A stretch of 64,000 nt of DNA from Candidatus Acidiferrum typicum (GTDB taxonomy: Bacteria; Acidobacteriota; Terriglobia; Acidiferrales; UBA7541): NCBI GenBank assembly GCA_025463055.1, contig JAOAPV010000005.1, forward strand, positions 124,001 to 188,000, given 5' to 3'. This document shows positions 41,291-47,007 of this stretch, one piece after another. The translations under genes were made by a program, and so were the position numbers. Below the pieces are notes generated by a model. The model worked only from the letters and a program-made list of their open reading frames with translations, had not been told where the DNA came from and did no database searches. Position 1 is the stretch's first letter, and each line of letters opens with the position of its first letter.

Positions 41291-42883
41291 CTAGATTGTC
41301 ACGAAATTGAAGCTTAGTTTTTGACCCAAATGTTCTCTCTTGAGTCTTTTTAAATACTCGTCCGCTTCATTCTGACGGTCAATCACTTCAGCCTGTGTCA
41401 GGAGCGAGAGCTCCGACCCGCCTTTCAATCCTAAGGCATTGAACGATGTTCCCAAACGAATGCCGGAGTTCTGAGTCAACCACCATCGATCATGAATCGG
41501 TAATTCCCCCGTTATTTGGGTCCCAACGATAGCAAGTTCCGTGTGAGGAGGTTCCTGATCTGAGAAATGCTTGTGCCAATATTCCCTATAGGCTTTCTGG
41601 TAGTCGGGCAAAACTCCGTCGTCATTCTGTTTTTTTCTACTGGTGAGGACGGTCACCTCCACAGCGGGCGCAACTTCGAGAATCAGCTTAAGGACCTCCA
41701 GGTCTTCAACACCAAACCACGGATCGCAAATCTGCAGGAATGAATCTGCGTTTGTTTCCAGCCACTGCTTTAGATACTCGAGCGCAATTGGGCGCTCGCC
41801 AGCGTGTACGAATAATTTCGACGGTTGCTCAGCCACTATTGGCGCCTTACTGGGACGAACTAGTCCGCTATGTCGGGTTGCAATTGCAGCTACCAGATCG
41901 CAGCTCGCAATCGACGCGTCACATAGCTCCCTGAGAAGAAGGCGACCGTCAGAGGCGGTCGACAGTCTGCAGATCGCGTTTTCTATGGCAAACGAGAAGA
42001 CAGGGTAGGCTCTCTTAAGCGACTCGGCAGAAGCCAACTTGATCCAATCGCGCAGCGTTTTGACGTGGCGCGTTGATATCCGATTAGCATTCAAACGTCC
42101 GAGCAATACGTTTGCGACTTCAGCCAGTCTGCGAAAGTCGGTGCCCAACTCCTCGGCTTGCTCATGCTTTTTGTTCAGCAAACTGTCGCGAAACTCATTG
42201 TATTGAATTCGTTCTCTCGCTCTTCGGCGTGCCTCATCAGTATCGAGCGATGATGCAAGCGATGAAGCCGCATCCGGATCTATTCGATAGGCCAAGTCCA
42301 CTAGTCGCCGCTGGATCGGCTCAGTCTCGGGGTCATTAGTGCGCAGCAGCACGTCTCTAGCGTCATTGAGCATCTTCTTCGCTAAAGGCTTGTCAATGTC
42401 AGCCGCAAACGATGCCAAAATTTGGAGCCTGCCTAATTTATCTTGCAGACTTGGTATGGAATGAGCCAATTCATAAGCCTCGTCGAGCAAGGCCACTTTC
42501 TTTGGCCACAAATCGTTGGGAAGTGCTCTTGCCATAATTCCCAGTACATACACTCGATCGCAGACATTAGGAATTGACCTGCCCAAGTTAATGAGATTTT
42601 CCCAGTCGGGCGTTTTATGTTTTTGCAGTTTGGCCGCTTGAGCGGAGGAGATAACTGCAAAGCCGTTGTGGGTGATGAACCGAGGATTTGGGAATTTATC
42701 TGCTATCAGCTTCGTCAACCGTTGCTCCAACTCATTTCGCTGTTCTCGCGTCAGTGGGGTTTCATTATGGTTCCAGATCGCGTCTGCACTAGCGTCTCGA
42801 TATGGCTGTAGATGAGTGAGTCGCTGTCCATCAGAGAGAGCAACGTACATATGTCGCCAGCTGACGCCCAGTCTAGGTTGCAT
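41291..42883 (-). CDS. TPR-like protein with C-terminal phospholipase-D-like domain (probably 3' part of a frameshifted gene)
   Basis: The open frame gives 530 residues, but the first ~35 lie inside the preceding NTPase gene and look like shadow. Meaningful sequence begins around IWNHNETPLTREQRNELEQR. Helical repeats fill about residues 40-330 (YVLGIMARALPNDLWPKKVALLDEAYEL...). The last ~150 residues resemble a PLD fold: FLQICDPWFGVEDLEVLKLIL, VEVTVLTSRKK and IHDRWWLTQNSG.RLGTSFNALG. His464 and Arg466 occupy the HxK places; the Asp of a full HKD is Gln. One inserted base near 42778 would join this to the NTPase. It is probably the effector end of the same protein. Confidence 0.65.
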   Translation of the reverse strand: MQPRLGVSWRHMYVALSDGQRLTHLQPYRDASADAIWNHNETPLTREQRNELEQRLTKLIADKFPNPRFITHNGFAVISSAQAAKLQKHKTPDWENLINLGRSIPNVCDRVYVLGIMARALPNDLWPKKVALLDEAYELAHSIPSLQDKLGRLQILASFAADIDKPLAKKMLNDARDVLLRTNDPETEPIQRRLVDLAYRIDPDAASSLASSLDTDEARRRARERIQYNEFRDSLLNKKHEQAEELGTDFRRLAEVANVLLGRLNANRISTRHVKTLRDWIKLASAESLKRAYPVFSFAIENAICRLSTASDGRLLLRELCDASIASCDLVAAIATRHSGLVRPSKAPIVAEQPSKLFVHAGERPIALEYLKQWLETNADSFLQICDPWFGVEDLEVLKLILEVAPAVEVTVLTSRKKQNDDGVLPDYQKAYREYWHKHFSDQEPPHTELAIVGTQITGELPIHDRWWLTQNSGIRLGTSFNALGLKGGSELSLLTQAEVIDRQNEADEYLKRLKREHLGQKLSFNFVTI

Positions 42884-45800
42884 TGGTCTTCGCGATTATC
42901 AAAGGGATCACCCGGCGGAACTCGACGAAATACAAATTCCACCATAAGGTCCAAACTGACGTCCCGCCAGTCGCGTGGTAGACGGTTGACAAGTTCTAAA
43001 GCAGAGGCGGCGTGTGCCTGATAGAGTGCGGGGCTGGCAGTAACGACCGCCCGCTTCCAAAGCGAATAGTCCTGCTTCTCCAATATCGCCAGCAAGGGTT
43101 GGATATACTGACTGACCGTCTTCCGTGCGTCATCACTTCGCTTAGCTTTGAAGTATCGCAGCGACACTTCCGTCCACAGGCGCACTCGAGAGATTAGGCT
43201 TGGGATGCGATTGATAGCACTGGCGATATTCGACAGGTCATCTCCGGTTTCAAGCCGACTAGCAAATAGCCCGGAAAACGCGCGAATAGCCAGCCGAAGG
43301 CTGGAAATATAGACCGGACGCCCGCAATCCAGTTGTGGGTCACGCTTGAGTTCGTGGCCTTTCTCCAGGTAGAACAAAGCTTCGGCACGGGCATCACTTG
43401 CGAGCAAACTCGTCAATTTGTAGGCTGAGTCGATTTTCTCAATACCACCATCCATCGATTCCCAGGTGGATCTCAGTACTTGAAAGATTTTTTCTTTCAG
43501 CCCCTGATAGCTTGGGTCTCCGGCCCGAGCGAGGAGCGCTGCCGACCACCCACACGCTTTTCGCCGAAGAACTACATCAGTAAGTTTGGAAGATCTAACG
43601 ATAAAGGGAACTAATTCAGTTAGGCTGGCCTGTATGGTTGAGGTATCCGCTTCCTGAGCGCGATGCAGGATTCTTTCTACCGCTTGATCTACTAAATCAA
43701 CGTCCACAATCTTATCAATTACGGCGCCGAGAAACCTAAATGGGACTGATTCCAAGGGCTGACTCAGCGCTGCTTTTATAAGGTCCAGTTTGGCTCTGTC
43801 GCGTCTTGGTTCTGCGTTAAGGGACTCTGTAAGAGCCATTCCTCGGTTCGGAAGGGAAGTTGCCAAGACTTCGATCATGCTGCGGGTGACTTTCACATGT
43901 TCGGCGGTAGAGCCCAACAGTTCGTCGACCTCCTTTTGGAATTCCTCCTCCACGAGCATTGCGATAATCGAGGTGTCCTGAAGCCTATTTTGCGGATCGA
44001 TTGCAGGCAGGGCAGCCATGAGGCGAGCCGTGCAACCCGTCCTGACTTCGAGGTCTTTAACAGCTCTGATTTCGAGATAAACTTCTTGTAGTCGCTTACT
44101 CGCGCCCTCAGGGTCGATGTTAGCTTGGGCTTGGGCGAGCGTGAGTTGTAATTGTATGTAGTCTTGGGTGGGCCCTTGCGTTCTTAATACGCCCCGCTGA
44201 GTATCGAACGTCGAGATAAGTCTCTCAAGTTTCTCTCTGTCCTTTATGAAAGGCAGTGGGGTCGCTAATTCACGAACGTCTTTGGCAGTAGGGGCATATT
44301 CACTAGTGTTGATCACTAGCTTCAGGGCGTGCTCGATCACCTCAGCGGCATTTTCTCTATCGCCCGTATACAATGCCCACAGTCGCAGCATGAATATCTT
44401 TTCCGAAGGTGTTGAGAGCTTTTGAACTTCGGCCAGGATGTCGTTAACTGAGTATGTGCCAAGCACGAATGACATAGCGACAGAGAACTGACGCGCTAGT
44501 GGATGTTTAATTCGCTGTCGAAAGGATTCAGAGACCGAGTCAATCCCGACCTTGTCCTTCTGAGCGTTGACTAGCGCCTCGACTGAGAGTCGCGCGAAGG
44601 TCCAGTCGGTGACTGAATCGTCATTGGCTACAGCCGGTAGGCGCTCGGCCAACTTGATTCCGAGATCTGGTCTTGAATACATCAAGTCGGACGCAAGACG
44701 AACCGCGCCTTTCCCAAGCTCTTCCGGAGTGACCTGGTCATATAACAGGCTAATTTGTTCTAAGAGCTCTGGCTTGGGCGTCAATCCATTTTCTTTTTGA
44801 AAGCGAGCAATCGTCGCTAGGAGTCCAAGCCGATGTTGTTTTAGAATTGCTGCCTGAGCGACGCTCACGGCCTCAGCATATTCTCCGAGCGACATCCACG
44901 CTCGAACTTCAGACCTTAGGGTCGAAAACCCATCAAATTCTTGCAATGCAGCGTTCTGAATTCCAAAACGTAGTAGGTCTCCGTCCCTCCCCAGGCGGAA
45001 AGCGGTCGATACTCCTGCCGTGGCGCTTTGGCGCACTGGCAAGAGGGACCCACTCCGGCTGACCATGGTGCTGAAGTGTTCAGGAGAGAGGTACGCAACT
45101 AGTTCTTCCAATTTTCCCGCCTGCTCCAAATATGTTGGAAGCAGGGCCAGGGCACCGTCTGTTTCTGGATTTTGCAGGAAATACTCAATTGCCATTTGGC
45201 GGACTAAAGGGCGCCGCGGCAGCAACCGATCCTCGACGTATCGTCGAAAACGATCAGATACGAATTCCGCGACTTCTTGGTCGGTCTTCGGAAGACGCAC
45301 GAAAGCCAGTGGCGCTAGAGACTGCCGGGCCTGTTCAGGCGATTGCCTTGTGATCAAGGCAAGGTCCGCGACAGAATGCTTCGGTGTTGGCTGTGAGGCT
45401 AATGCAAGGAGGTTGAGCAAGGGTTCATTGCTCTGATCGACCGTTTTCCATTCAAGATCAAAGAGGTTCGGTAATTTTTCTGGGAGCTCATTCAACAATG
45501 ACTCAGGAGTCGCCCCTGCTTCCAGCAGGCGCCTAATGCTGGCGATCTGTCCTGGAATTCCTCTGCTAGATATCTTGTAGAGTTCTTCGAAAAATTGCCG
45601 ATCGATTTGCAAATCCGAAAAGTAGGCAAAGGTTTCCTCGAGACCGAAGCCGGACAGAATATAGGGCTTGTGTTGTACGCGCCCTCTTATGTAGCGGAGC
45701 ATGTACTCCGGTCGAGTGGCGATCAGACACTTAATATGCGGAACTCCTACCGGTAGTAACCCGAAGATCGCGGACTTGGCGTGAGCTTCGTCTGGCACAC

Positions 45801-46260
45801 CTTCGATTCCGTCGACAACAAAATAAAAGTCAGCGTTCTTACGAGCGGCCAAACGTGCCAATCCGAACACTAGTTGACGGTAATAAGATTCATCTGTGTG
45901 TTCGTCTTCCTTTAGCTCCGTCCCTTGCAGGATAAAGTGCATTTGATTGCACATTTCCCTGAGGAGAATTTGAAGATCATACGAAAACCAGCTCATGGGT
46001 TTGATAAAAAGACTTATTGTCTTAGTGGGGTGTCTCTTCGCGAATTGAGCAAGCAGAGTGGTCTTACCGATCTCTTCCGCGCCTTCAACCGTGAGCAGCT
46101 GAATTCCACTCTGAAACATGTCATCTAGGGTAGACAAAATGTTCTCACGGAGGACTTGTTTGGATGGAAGTTCAGGCAGAGTTGTCGCGACGGCAGTGAC
46201 ATCGCCTGCGACGGTGCGTTCCAATGGAAATCCGCGAAAATCGGTCAGCTGTTGAGTCAT
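42751..46260 (-). CDS. STAND-type P-loop NTPase with long helical-repeat region
   Basis: A 1169-residue protein. The N-terminal NTPase has Walker A GAEEIGKTT (Lys66, Thr67), Walker B FYFVVDG (Asp150) and the STAND-like sensor CLIATRPEYM (Arg183). About 250-400 looks like a winged-helix linker, and the rest is alpha-helical solenoid of TPR/HEAT character with no recognised family. There is no membrane segment or signal peptide. The start lacks a Shine-Dalgarno and lies only a few bases from a predicted transcription start, so translation may be leaderless. The stop falls 132 bases inside the next frame, where the PLD-like module continues. One hand-counted line (44461-44520) is 29/60 GC against 36/60 at 48001-48060 in the AsmA gene. 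Confidence 0.7.
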   Translation of the reverse strand: MTQQLTDFRGFPLERTVAGDVTAVATTLPELPSKQVLRENILSTLDDMFQSGIQLLTVEGAEEIGKTTLLAQFAKRHPTKTISLFIKPMSWFSYDLQILLREMCNQMHFILQGTELKEDEHTDESYYRQLVFGLARLAARKNADFYFVVDGIEGVPDEAHAKSAIFGLLPVGVPHIKCLIATRPEYMLRYIRGRVQHKPYILSGFGLEETFAYFSDLQIDRQFFEELYKISSRGIPGQIASIRRLLEAGATPESLLNELPEKLPNLFDLEWKTVDQSNEPLLNLLALASQPTPKHSVADLALITRQSPEQARQSLAPLAFVRLPKTDQEVAEFVSDRFRRYVEDRLLPRRPLVRQMAIEYFLQNPETDGALALLPTYLEQAGKLEELVAYLSPEHFSTMVSRSGSLLPVRQSATAGVSTAFRLGRDGDLLRFGIQNAALQEFDGFSTLRSEVRAWMSLGEYAEAVSVAQAAILKQHRLGLLATIARFQKENGLTPKPELLEQISLLYDQVTPEELGKGAVRLASDLMYSRPDLGIKLAERLPAVANDDSVTDWTFARLSVEALVNAQKDKVGIDSVSESFRQRIKHPLARQFSVAMSFVLGTYSVNDILAEVQKLSTPSEKIFMLRLWALYTGDRENAAEVIEHALKLVINTSEYAPTAKDVRELATPLPFIKDREKLERLISTFDTQRGVLRTQGPTQDYIQLQLTLAQAQANIDPEGASKRLQEVYLEIRAVKDLEVRTGCTARLMAALPAIDPQNRLQDTSIIAMLVEEEFQKEVDELLGSTAEHVKVTRSMIEVLATSLPNRGMALTESLNAEPRRDRAKLDLIKAALSQPLESVPFRFLGAVIDKIVDVDLVDQAVERILHRAQEADTSTIQASLTELVPFIVRSSKLTDVVLRRKACGWSAALLARAGDPSYQGLKEKIFQVLRSTWESMDGGIEKIDSAYKLTSLLASDARAEALFYLEKGHELKRDPQLDCGRPVYISSLRLAIRAFSGLFASRLETGDDLSNIASAINRIPSLISRVRLWTEVSLRYFKAKRSDDARKTVSQYIQPLLAILEKQDYSLWKRAVVTASPALYQAHAASALELVNRLPRDWRDVSLDLMVEFVFRRVPPGDPFDNREDQCNLDWASAGDICTLLSLMDSDSLIYSHIETLVQTRSGTIMKPH

Positions 46261-46743: not shown

Positions 46744-47007
46744 TCAGGCTCTTGATGGGAGGCGGCGAATAAAGAAGCGGTAGAGCAAGAGTAGCAGCAT
46801 CGCTCCTAAGATTGACATGATGAAGCCGGCGGACTGGCCTGTTGCGTACCAGCCGAGCGCTCGCCCCAAGTATGTGGCAATCAAGGAGCCGGCAACTCCC
46901 AGGGCCATCGTTATCCAGATGCCGCCTGGGTCTTTGCCTGGCATGAGGAGCTTTGCTATGGCGCCCACAATCAGACCGATGATAAGTGCTCCGATTAAGG
47001 AAAACAT
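46744..47007 (-). CDS. GlsB/YeaQ/YmgE family membrane protein
   Basis: An 87-residue inner-membrane protein with three hydrophobic helices separated by short Gly-rich turns. The opening FSLIGALIIGLIVGAIAKLLMPGKDPGGIWITM is the family signature (transglycosylase-associated protein family). CAGGAGGTGG precedes the ATG. Family members are small stress-linked membrane proteins of unsettled function. It is the last minus-strand gene before the repeat cluster. Confidence 0.9.
   Translation of the reverse strand: MFSLIGALIIGLIVGAIAKLLMPGKDPGGIWITMALGVAGSLIATYLGRALGWYATGQSAGFIMSILGAMLLLLLYRFFIRRLPSRA

Follow-up and report, generated by a model that had tools for sequence, protein, structure and literature searches.

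A probably frameshifted gene for a candidate STAND immune receptor with a predicted C-terminal PLD-fold domain in Candidatus Acidiferrum typicum

STAND receptors combine sensing with NTPase switching and multimerisation (PMC6468293, PMC12931631). Their effectors sit at either end of the protein. MalT, for example, has a C-terminal DNA-binding domain (PMC6468293, introduction), and predicted GT4 effectors are often C-terminal to STAND modules (PMC8195603). Here we describe a locus of the acidobacterium Candidatus Acidiferrum typicum in a 64,000-nucleotide stretch of contig JAOAPV010000005.1 (positions 124,001 to 188,000; hereafter the window), where two overlapping open reading frames (ORFs), P0001 and P0002, are predicted to encode a STAND NTPase with a long helical solenoid that ends in a phospholipase D (PLD)-fold domain with an HDR motif.

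The locus probably holds, in frameshifted form, a STAND immune receptor that is encoded by one gene, is rare and has spread horizontally; the intact protein would have about 1640 residues and a C-terminal PLD-fold effector activated by oligomerisation. We infer defence activity and catalysis for this receptor and, with them, a trigger, oligomerisation and an abortive outcome.

Probably one gene in two frames

Both ORFs lie on the minus strand where an earlier note on this DNA had placed them, and their translations contain every motif it had quoted (GAEEIGKTT, FYFVVDG, ATRP, CDPWF, VLTS, HDRWW and GTSFNALG). The note had the second ORF following directly upon the first. The strand is indeed the same, but there is no simple succession: P0001 and P0002 overlap by 133 bp in different frames, and homology of P0002 to its relatives starts only near its residue 39 (Table 1). 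The third-codon-position GC content (GC3) is equal in the two parts, and a DNA search of the organism's own genome found the gene at this one place.

Relatives were found on plasmids by tblastn, where P0001 matched four records at E values of 3e-53 to 1e-86 and P0002 matched the same four at 7e-11 to 2e-61, much too strongly for chance matches. The plasmids belong to Carnobacterium inhibens, Aromatoleum aromaticum, Cytobacillus oceanisediminis and Exiguobacterium mexicanum, and each has a single annotated coding sequence of 1633-1657 amino acids that spans both parts. A scan of genome contigs with a single protein found no relative, but an alignment-based scan found 30 loci in genome contigs and 3 in viral contigs. 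In total, 25 copies are intact and run through 1620-1673 codons as single ORFs (19 from genome contigs, 2 distinct ones from viral contigs and 4 from plasmids). Because the intact relatives all carry both parts as a single ORF, the window copy is most probably a single gene, disrupted within the overlap by a shift of frame or by an assembly error. Only one lesion is seen in it, with no further stop in either ORF, so the break should be recent or an assembly error; a sequencing or assembly error and a recent mutation would account for it equally well. An assembly error, or some bypass of the frame change, would leave the gene functional in this genome; otherwise it is probably inactive.

Five other copies (L010, L013, L026, L028 and L030) contain interrupting frame changes or inserts of about 1.4-1.6 kb, and two (L035 and L036) are C-terminal remnants. 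With the window copy included, broken copies number 6 among 31 judged, a total that leaves out the remnants, three copies that begin near a contig end (L019, L020 and L024), and L011 and L039, which were counted as repeats of L010 and L038 on equal matches. In the Peribacillus copy L013 the break falls at an A-run (L013:13300-13800), a possible slippage site that lies in the same region of the gene as the break in the window but at a different spot. The L030 copy has an insert and a further frame change.

STAND core, solenoid and PLD-fold domain

The AlphaFold2 model of the first part, made from 22 sequences, has a pLDDT of 84.8 and a pTM of 0.68. It starts with a low-confidence segment, followed by a P-loop NTPase and a helical/winged-helix region, and then consists of helices alone from about residue 336 to 1162. 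The Foldseek matches in the PDB include Avs3 (7.6e-10), the STAND protein PH0952 (6mfv, 9.7e-9), MalT (1.2e-6), Apaf-1 (6.6e-6) and Avs4 (6.6e-6), with NLRP9 and CED-4 also among the first. VIA comparisons gave plant NRC2 a Z of 13.5 (285 residues aligned, 4.8 Å), Apaf-1 13.4 (391, 6.7 Å) and MalT 13.2 (366, 6.7 Å). Residues ~20-354 align in this way with plant NLRs, Apaf-1, MalT and CED-4 at Z ~12-13.5, values that helical proteins may also reach by chance; the leading VIA rows are nearly all STAND or other AAA+-type NTPases. By sequence, Pfam gave only weak P-loop and TPR matches to P0001, and a profile built on the first part reached 1.1e-5 at best, with consensus TPR proteins, and matched P-loops weakly. 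The last Gly of Walker A is kept in 25/25 relatives.

With a Walker A, an hhhhDG Walker B, a GxP motif, a winged helix and superhelical repeats all present in sequence and model, the protein falls in the STAND NTPase superfamily, and the proposal of a STAND NTPase with a long helical region is borne out. Residues 1-17 of P0001 are of low confidence and the NTPase alignment begins at ~20-33; the model supports a STAND core at the very N-terminus that leaves no space for an N-terminal effector. The earlier note had inferred an order of sensor and effector opposite to that of Avs proteins. The predicted domain order agrees with this, but C-terminal effectors have precedents among STAND proteins, namely MalT and the GT4 proteins.

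The C-part, modelled separately with a pLDDT of 83.7, has a PLD fold in its last 180 residues (~313-492 of the model, P0002 351-530, as delimited by VIA). The VIA matches of this region are NucT (Z 12.9, 144 residues, 3.5 Å), human BJ-TSA-9 (12.7, 152, 3.4 Å), FAM83B (12.2, 146, 3.2 Å), Nuc (11.9, 144, 3.1 Å), Zucchini (11.9, 143, 3.4 Å), the phosphatidylserine synthase of E. coli (11.9, 159, 3.7 Å) and SauUSI (10.6, 148, 3.2 Å). The candidate ranked first by VIA for the whole C-part, Ton1535 (Z 14.8, residues 9-201), was rejected, as it falls on helices and its Z is perhaps due to chance. In Foldseek, MITD1 has the best E value of the C-part, 1.3e-4, but with TM-scores of 0.21/0.40 and an rmsd of 16.7 Å. 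Structure prediction, one of the checks proposed for this locus, thus found both an NTPase and a PLD fold, the latter at the C-terminus as expected. Sequence searches gave little for this part: Pfam found nothing on P0002, and a profile of the PLD part returned matches at chance level only. Single-protein searches of PDB sequences also gave no more than chance-level matches.

Across 26 sequences the invariant positions are D387 and F390 of a DP-F motif, W436, H464-D465-R466 and G478-T479-S480. The canonical PLD motif, HxK(x)4D(x)6G(S/T)xN, is departed from in a regular manner, in that the His is present in 26/26 and the Lys in 0/26 (Arg in 26/26). The HDR motif had been taken for a degenerate HKD. 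It is instead a conserved variant and not the product of decay, since it is invariant in the family and recurs in other proteins, some of which are linked to defence.

Table 1. Features of the locus, in window coordinates
Feature	Position	Strand	Remarks
ORF P0001, STAND NTPase core and first part of helical solenoid	42751..46260	minus	1169 aa
ORF P0002	41291..42883	minus	530 aa; first ~38 residues without counterpart in relatives
Overlap of frames, break point relative to the single gene of relatives	42751..42883	minus	
Walker A, GAEEIGKT, residues 60-67	46060..46083	minus	Lys in 21/25 relatives
Walker B, FVVDG region, residues 145-151	45808..45828	minus	Asp in 25/25 relatives
GxP motif, GIPG, residues 234-237	45550..45561	minus	Pro in 24/25 relatives
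NTPase and winged-helix region, residues ~33-354	45199..46164	minus	aligns with NLRs, Apaf-1, MalT, CED-4
Alpha-helical solenoid, residues ~336-1162, presumed arm and sensor	42775..45255	minus	secondary structure of model; weak consensus-TPR profile matches
Second part of helical solenoid	41870..42748	minus	model
PLD-fold domain with HDR motif, presumed effector	41294..41833	minus	model and conservation
DPWF motif	41714..41725	minus	D387 and F390 invariant
HDR motif, residues 464-466	41486..41494	minus	invariant 26/26
GTSFN, residues 478-482	41438..41452	minus	GTS 26/26, Asn 20/26

Other homes of the HDR domain, spread and neighbours

VPA1262 is encoded in a Vibrio genomic island (PMC1464126). 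The NCBIfam model VPA1262_N_dom matches 24 of the 26 family members at an E value of 0.1 or better, the best at 6e-21. The window protein matches it at 3e-7 with 29.5 bits, short of the curated cut-off of 80, and scores 11.2 bits against the VPA1262 family model, whose cut-off is 325. In a scan of 297 genomes of the window's phylum, four carry the HDR domain, the large form being present only in the window. One carrier (L041) encodes a 541-residue VPA1262-type protein that matches VPA1262_N_dom at 4.3e-74; directly after it comes a second, smaller HDR protein (L041:700-3003), as if half-sites were placed on two chains. Another (L042) encodes a small HDR protein of 237 residues that matches PADLOC PDC-S05 at 5.7e-15. 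In both of these related proteins the HDR is accompanied by an Asp seven residues past the His. The L043 protein (334 residues), itself without a PADLOC match, has an HNR variant of the domain and adjoins an ATPase that matches PDC-M55A and NsnB (~1e-31 to 6e-31; L043:1399-3302), possibly a Menshen-like pair.

Among 398 genomes of the phylum of another family member, L016 of Paenibacillus castaneae, the domain was matched in 9 (up to 8 candidates per genome were scored). The 8 matches outside the centre genome lie in open frames of 53-987 residues, too short for the large form, and the four sequences inspected (L071, L073, L074 and L075) show HDR. The profile of Menshen NsnC gives 0.039 for the whole window ORF and 0.0061 for its domain, 4.8e-5 for the domain of L016, and no match for L007. 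The HDR domain is thus one that recurs by sequence in several architectures, some of them linked to defence, as an effector module does.

Both parts of the window gene have their nearest relative in another acidobacterial copy, L029 (39% and 42%, both forks starred; support 100/100 in the first-part tree and 100/99 in the last-part tree). Of 11 sets starred in the first-part tree, 9 also carry a star in the last-part tree, so the two gene parts appear mostly to have travelled together. The two sets not recovered are L003 with L006 and both of these with L016; in the last-part tree, L003 and L006 stand near Bacteroidota rows (87/91). The 11 labelled phylum-level groups hardly cluster in the tree (12 changes against a shuffled mean of 13.5; as low in 24/200), and one deltaproteobacterial copy joins Verrucomicrobiota and Kiritimatiellota with a support of 100/100, all metagenome bins. 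None of 60 other genomes near the window, among them 35 of its genus, gave a match to a P0002 query. In 249 genomes of the phylum of L022, the first-part profile matched only the centre genome, and among the 2 candidates scored per genome there was no version of the receptor lacking the PLD domain. Each of the 27 genomes checked, which cover 27 of the 30 genome-contig loci (those of L010, L011 and L019 lie outside), has a single copy or remnant. Phage records gave no match to the Aromatoleum protein; copies do occur on the four plasmids and on viral contigs. The best explanation of the sequence data is a family that is rare, patchy and horizontally spread.

In the window, the gene has a GC content of 0.50-0.53, compared with 0.55-0.63 in the flanks. 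The genes of the left and right flanks are each conserved in the genus (strong matches to the right-flank gene in 9 of 35 others), but they are not side by side in any of 13/13 left-flank regions of the same genus (5.4-19.6 kb). As no clean empty site was found among these either, the locus is a synteny break and not a mapped insertion. At the right edge of the low-GC stretch lies an ORF for a small membrane protein (46744-47007), which we take by eye to resemble the GlsB/YeaQ family.

Homologues were also to be checked for defence genes nearby, and restriction, AriA, AbiLi and CHAT genes were found there along with integrases and TniQ. No general partner gene emerged when 517 neighbour ORFs, taken from within 10 kb of 34 loci, were compared all against all by BLAST (E 1e-5). 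Recombinases formed the largest group, at 6 loci, followed by two groups at 4 loci each (one of ABC transporters) and one at 3 loci. Across the loci, the neighbours include integrases, TniQ, type I, ISP and IIG restriction enzymes, AriA, AbiLi, CHAT, HNH and DUF262 proteins. HsdR adjoins L029 and a CHAT protein adjoins L005, and an NsnA-like DUF262 protein is encoded near L006. When this protein and the NsnB-like one of L043 were used as phmmer queries against the 517 ORFs (21 of them the window's), the first found only itself, and the second found no match, although divergent forms could be missed. TniQ genes stand beside the copies L021 (14998-16881) and L026 (10691-12511), which suggests carriage on Tn7-like elements. 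The halomonad copies L022 and L030 adjoin guaA and an IMP dehydrogenase gene on their upstream side.

PADLOC matched 292 families at 1e-8 in 139 neighbours (of 203 eligible, nearest first, the window left out). Among the matches listed, AriA, AbiLi, type I and IIG restriction, HNH, TniQ and HerA occur in 2-4 members. In 134 control ORFs (of 221, at places of our choosing in 18 of the same genomes) it matched 49 families; among the matches listed for these, PD-T4-6 models account for 17/25, each with a single member, and DpdF, mad6, MkoA and a REase_II are there as well, while mad3 is equally frequent in the two sets (3 and 3). These counts are of families and not of proteins, and one OLD-type ATPase alone matched 51, so the enrichment of defence genes beside family copies is only a rough sign.

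Proposed action, competing readings and described systems

We propose that the solenoid would recognise infection, probably by binding a protein of a phage or plasmid, upon which the NTPase core would open and oligomerise. The C-terminal PLD-fold domains would thereby be brought together, and their clustering would build an active site or a binding surface. The active site of PLD enzymes consists of two half-sites, and Nuc, with one motif per chain, works as a dimer. The single motif per chain found here therefore fits a site built by two chains, as in Nuc. The activated domain would then cut nucleic acid, as a first guess, or attack or bind a membrane or another target, and infection would be stopped, probably at the cost of the cell. 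There is about an even chance that the family represents an unnamed class of one-gene receptor that has a minimal N-terminal STAND switch, a very long solenoid and a C-terminal HDR-type PLD effector whose active site would exist only upon oligomerisation, the HDR domain being a module shared with VPA1262-type proteins, PDC-S05 and perhaps NsnC.

Several observations weigh against the immune receptor. The window copy is broken. Its match to Pfam NACHT, 17.7 bits, is below the cut-off of 26.7, and the Walker A Lys is replaced in 4 of 25 relatives, by Ala in three (L004, L023 and L033) and by Arg in one (L018), for which reason NTP hydrolysis may be dispensable in some members. (The three Ala copies form a clade of Pseudomonadota in which the rest of the protein is kept; the Aromatoleum copy is among those without the Lys.) The pTM of the C-part model is 0.42, which makes the mutual placing of solenoid and last domain unsure. 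The PLD fold is nearly invisible by sequence, as Pfam PLDc_2 matches 1/22 members (0.0033) amid chance-like matches. The Lys of HKD is Arg throughout (26/26), at the Asp position the window has Gln and only 2/25 relatives have Asp, and the late Asn, present in 20/26, is replaced in 6/26, all of which makes catalysis doubtful. FAM83 and MITD1 are PLD folds that are not known to be catalytic. Finally, the link to NsnC is weak and the neighbour enrichment is crude, the controls having held defence genes too.

The most serious competing reading is that the window gene was acquired and then disabled, so that it is an idle relic in this organism while the family is real. Its chances are a little short of even, and it is compatible with the receptor reading rather than exclusive of it. 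The frame change here, the five other interrupted copies and the two remnants speak for it, while the single lesion in otherwise open ORFs points to a recent event or an assembly error.

A less probable, though still substantial, alternative keeps the receptor and makes its last domain non-enzymatic, so that it would bind membrane, DNA or a partner, as in FAM83 or MITD1, and the oligomer would act by crowding or docking. The places of FAM83B and BJ-TSA-9 among the best VIA matches of the PLD region and of MITD1 at the head of the Foldseek matches, poor superposition aside, agree with this, as do the altered Lys, Asp and Asn of the HKD motif. However, the HDR His and the GTS do not vary even among very divergent sequences, which would suit an active site; the VIA scores of NucT, Nuc and Zucchini are just as high; MITD1 is not among the best 50 VIA rows; and the related proteins of L041 and L042 have an Asp seven residues past the His of HDR.

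It is improbable that the window holds a true two-protein system, in which the C-part would have a start codon of its own or arise by -1 frameshifting. In favour of it, each ORF is open throughout, GC3 is equal in the two, all conserved motifs are kept, and the gene of the Peribacillus copy is also split in a nearby part. Against this, the intact relatives are single ORFs in 25/25 cases, the start of P0002 has no counterpart in them, the overlap contains no in-frame slippery heptamer of the form XXXYYYZ, and the Peribacillus break is at an A-run and at a different spot.

Least probable of all is a MalT-like STAND regulator of a host process with a PLD-fold domain that binds DNA as in TrmBL2, for while MalT has the identical order of NTPase, solenoid and effector (PMC6468293) and the Foldseek matches of the C-part include the archaeal DNA-binding protein TrmBL2, the gene is absent from the 60 other genomes near the window, has no conserved neighbour as a possible target operon, decays frequently, and occurs on plasmids, on viral contigs and near transposition and restriction genes.

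The candidate immune receptor can be compared with several described systems. Avs3 and Avs4 of AVAST share its STAND core and long helical solenoid, Avs3 being the best Foldseek match of the first part, but the effector of Avs proteins is N-terminal (PMC12931631), whereas the window family has none there and a PLD-fold one at the C-terminus. The window protein matches no Avs model of PADLOC (2023), and 1 of 22 members matches Avs4 at 9.5e-4; the earlier note had not recognised the arrangement as a named system, which agrees with this. MalT and PH0952 have in common with it the NTPase, the arm and a TPR-type sensor, and the effector of MalT is also C-terminal, but it is a DNA-binding domain, and the solenoid of the window family is about three times the length of the MalT sensor (residues 443-803; PMC6468293). 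STAND-GT4 and similar predicted conflict proteins share the C-terminal position of the effector, which in their case has a glycosyltransferase and not a PLD fold.

For the last domain, the VPA1262 family (NF040700/NF040699) has a homologous HDR PLD-like domain, but at 541 residues the L041 protein is too short for the STAND-solenoid part. PDC-S05 and, by a weak match, perhaps Menshen NsnC contain a stretch of the same domain in separate small proteins, and relatives of NsnA and NsnB are not conserved neighbours here. The nucleases NucT and Nuc share the fold and the single motif per chain, the window family having HDR in place of HxK with its Asp. The C-terminal domain of MITD1, best by Foldseek E value but low in TM-score, belongs to a eukaryotic, ESCRT-linked membrane-binding protein with an HDR-like motif.

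No model of Pfam, NCBIfam or PADLOC covers the whole protein, and no description of this architecture was found in the literature searched, which took in the available portions of papers other than subscription papers and supplements. In these portions, PMC7159879 has no "PLD" in its text and "phospholipase" in one reference alone, and PMC12839542 and PMC12799240 hold no match to the architecture. STAND receptors, C-terminal STAND effectors and PLD-fold effectors are thus each known, while their fixed combination in one gene appears to be unnamed in the sources searched. If the proposal is right, the HDR-type PLD domain, which is found in several proteins, a part of them linked to defence, and for which no assigned activity was found in these sources, would gain a role open to testing. 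It would also mean that a bacterial NLR-like receptor can carry its weapon behind the sensor, in an order opposite to that of Avs proteins.

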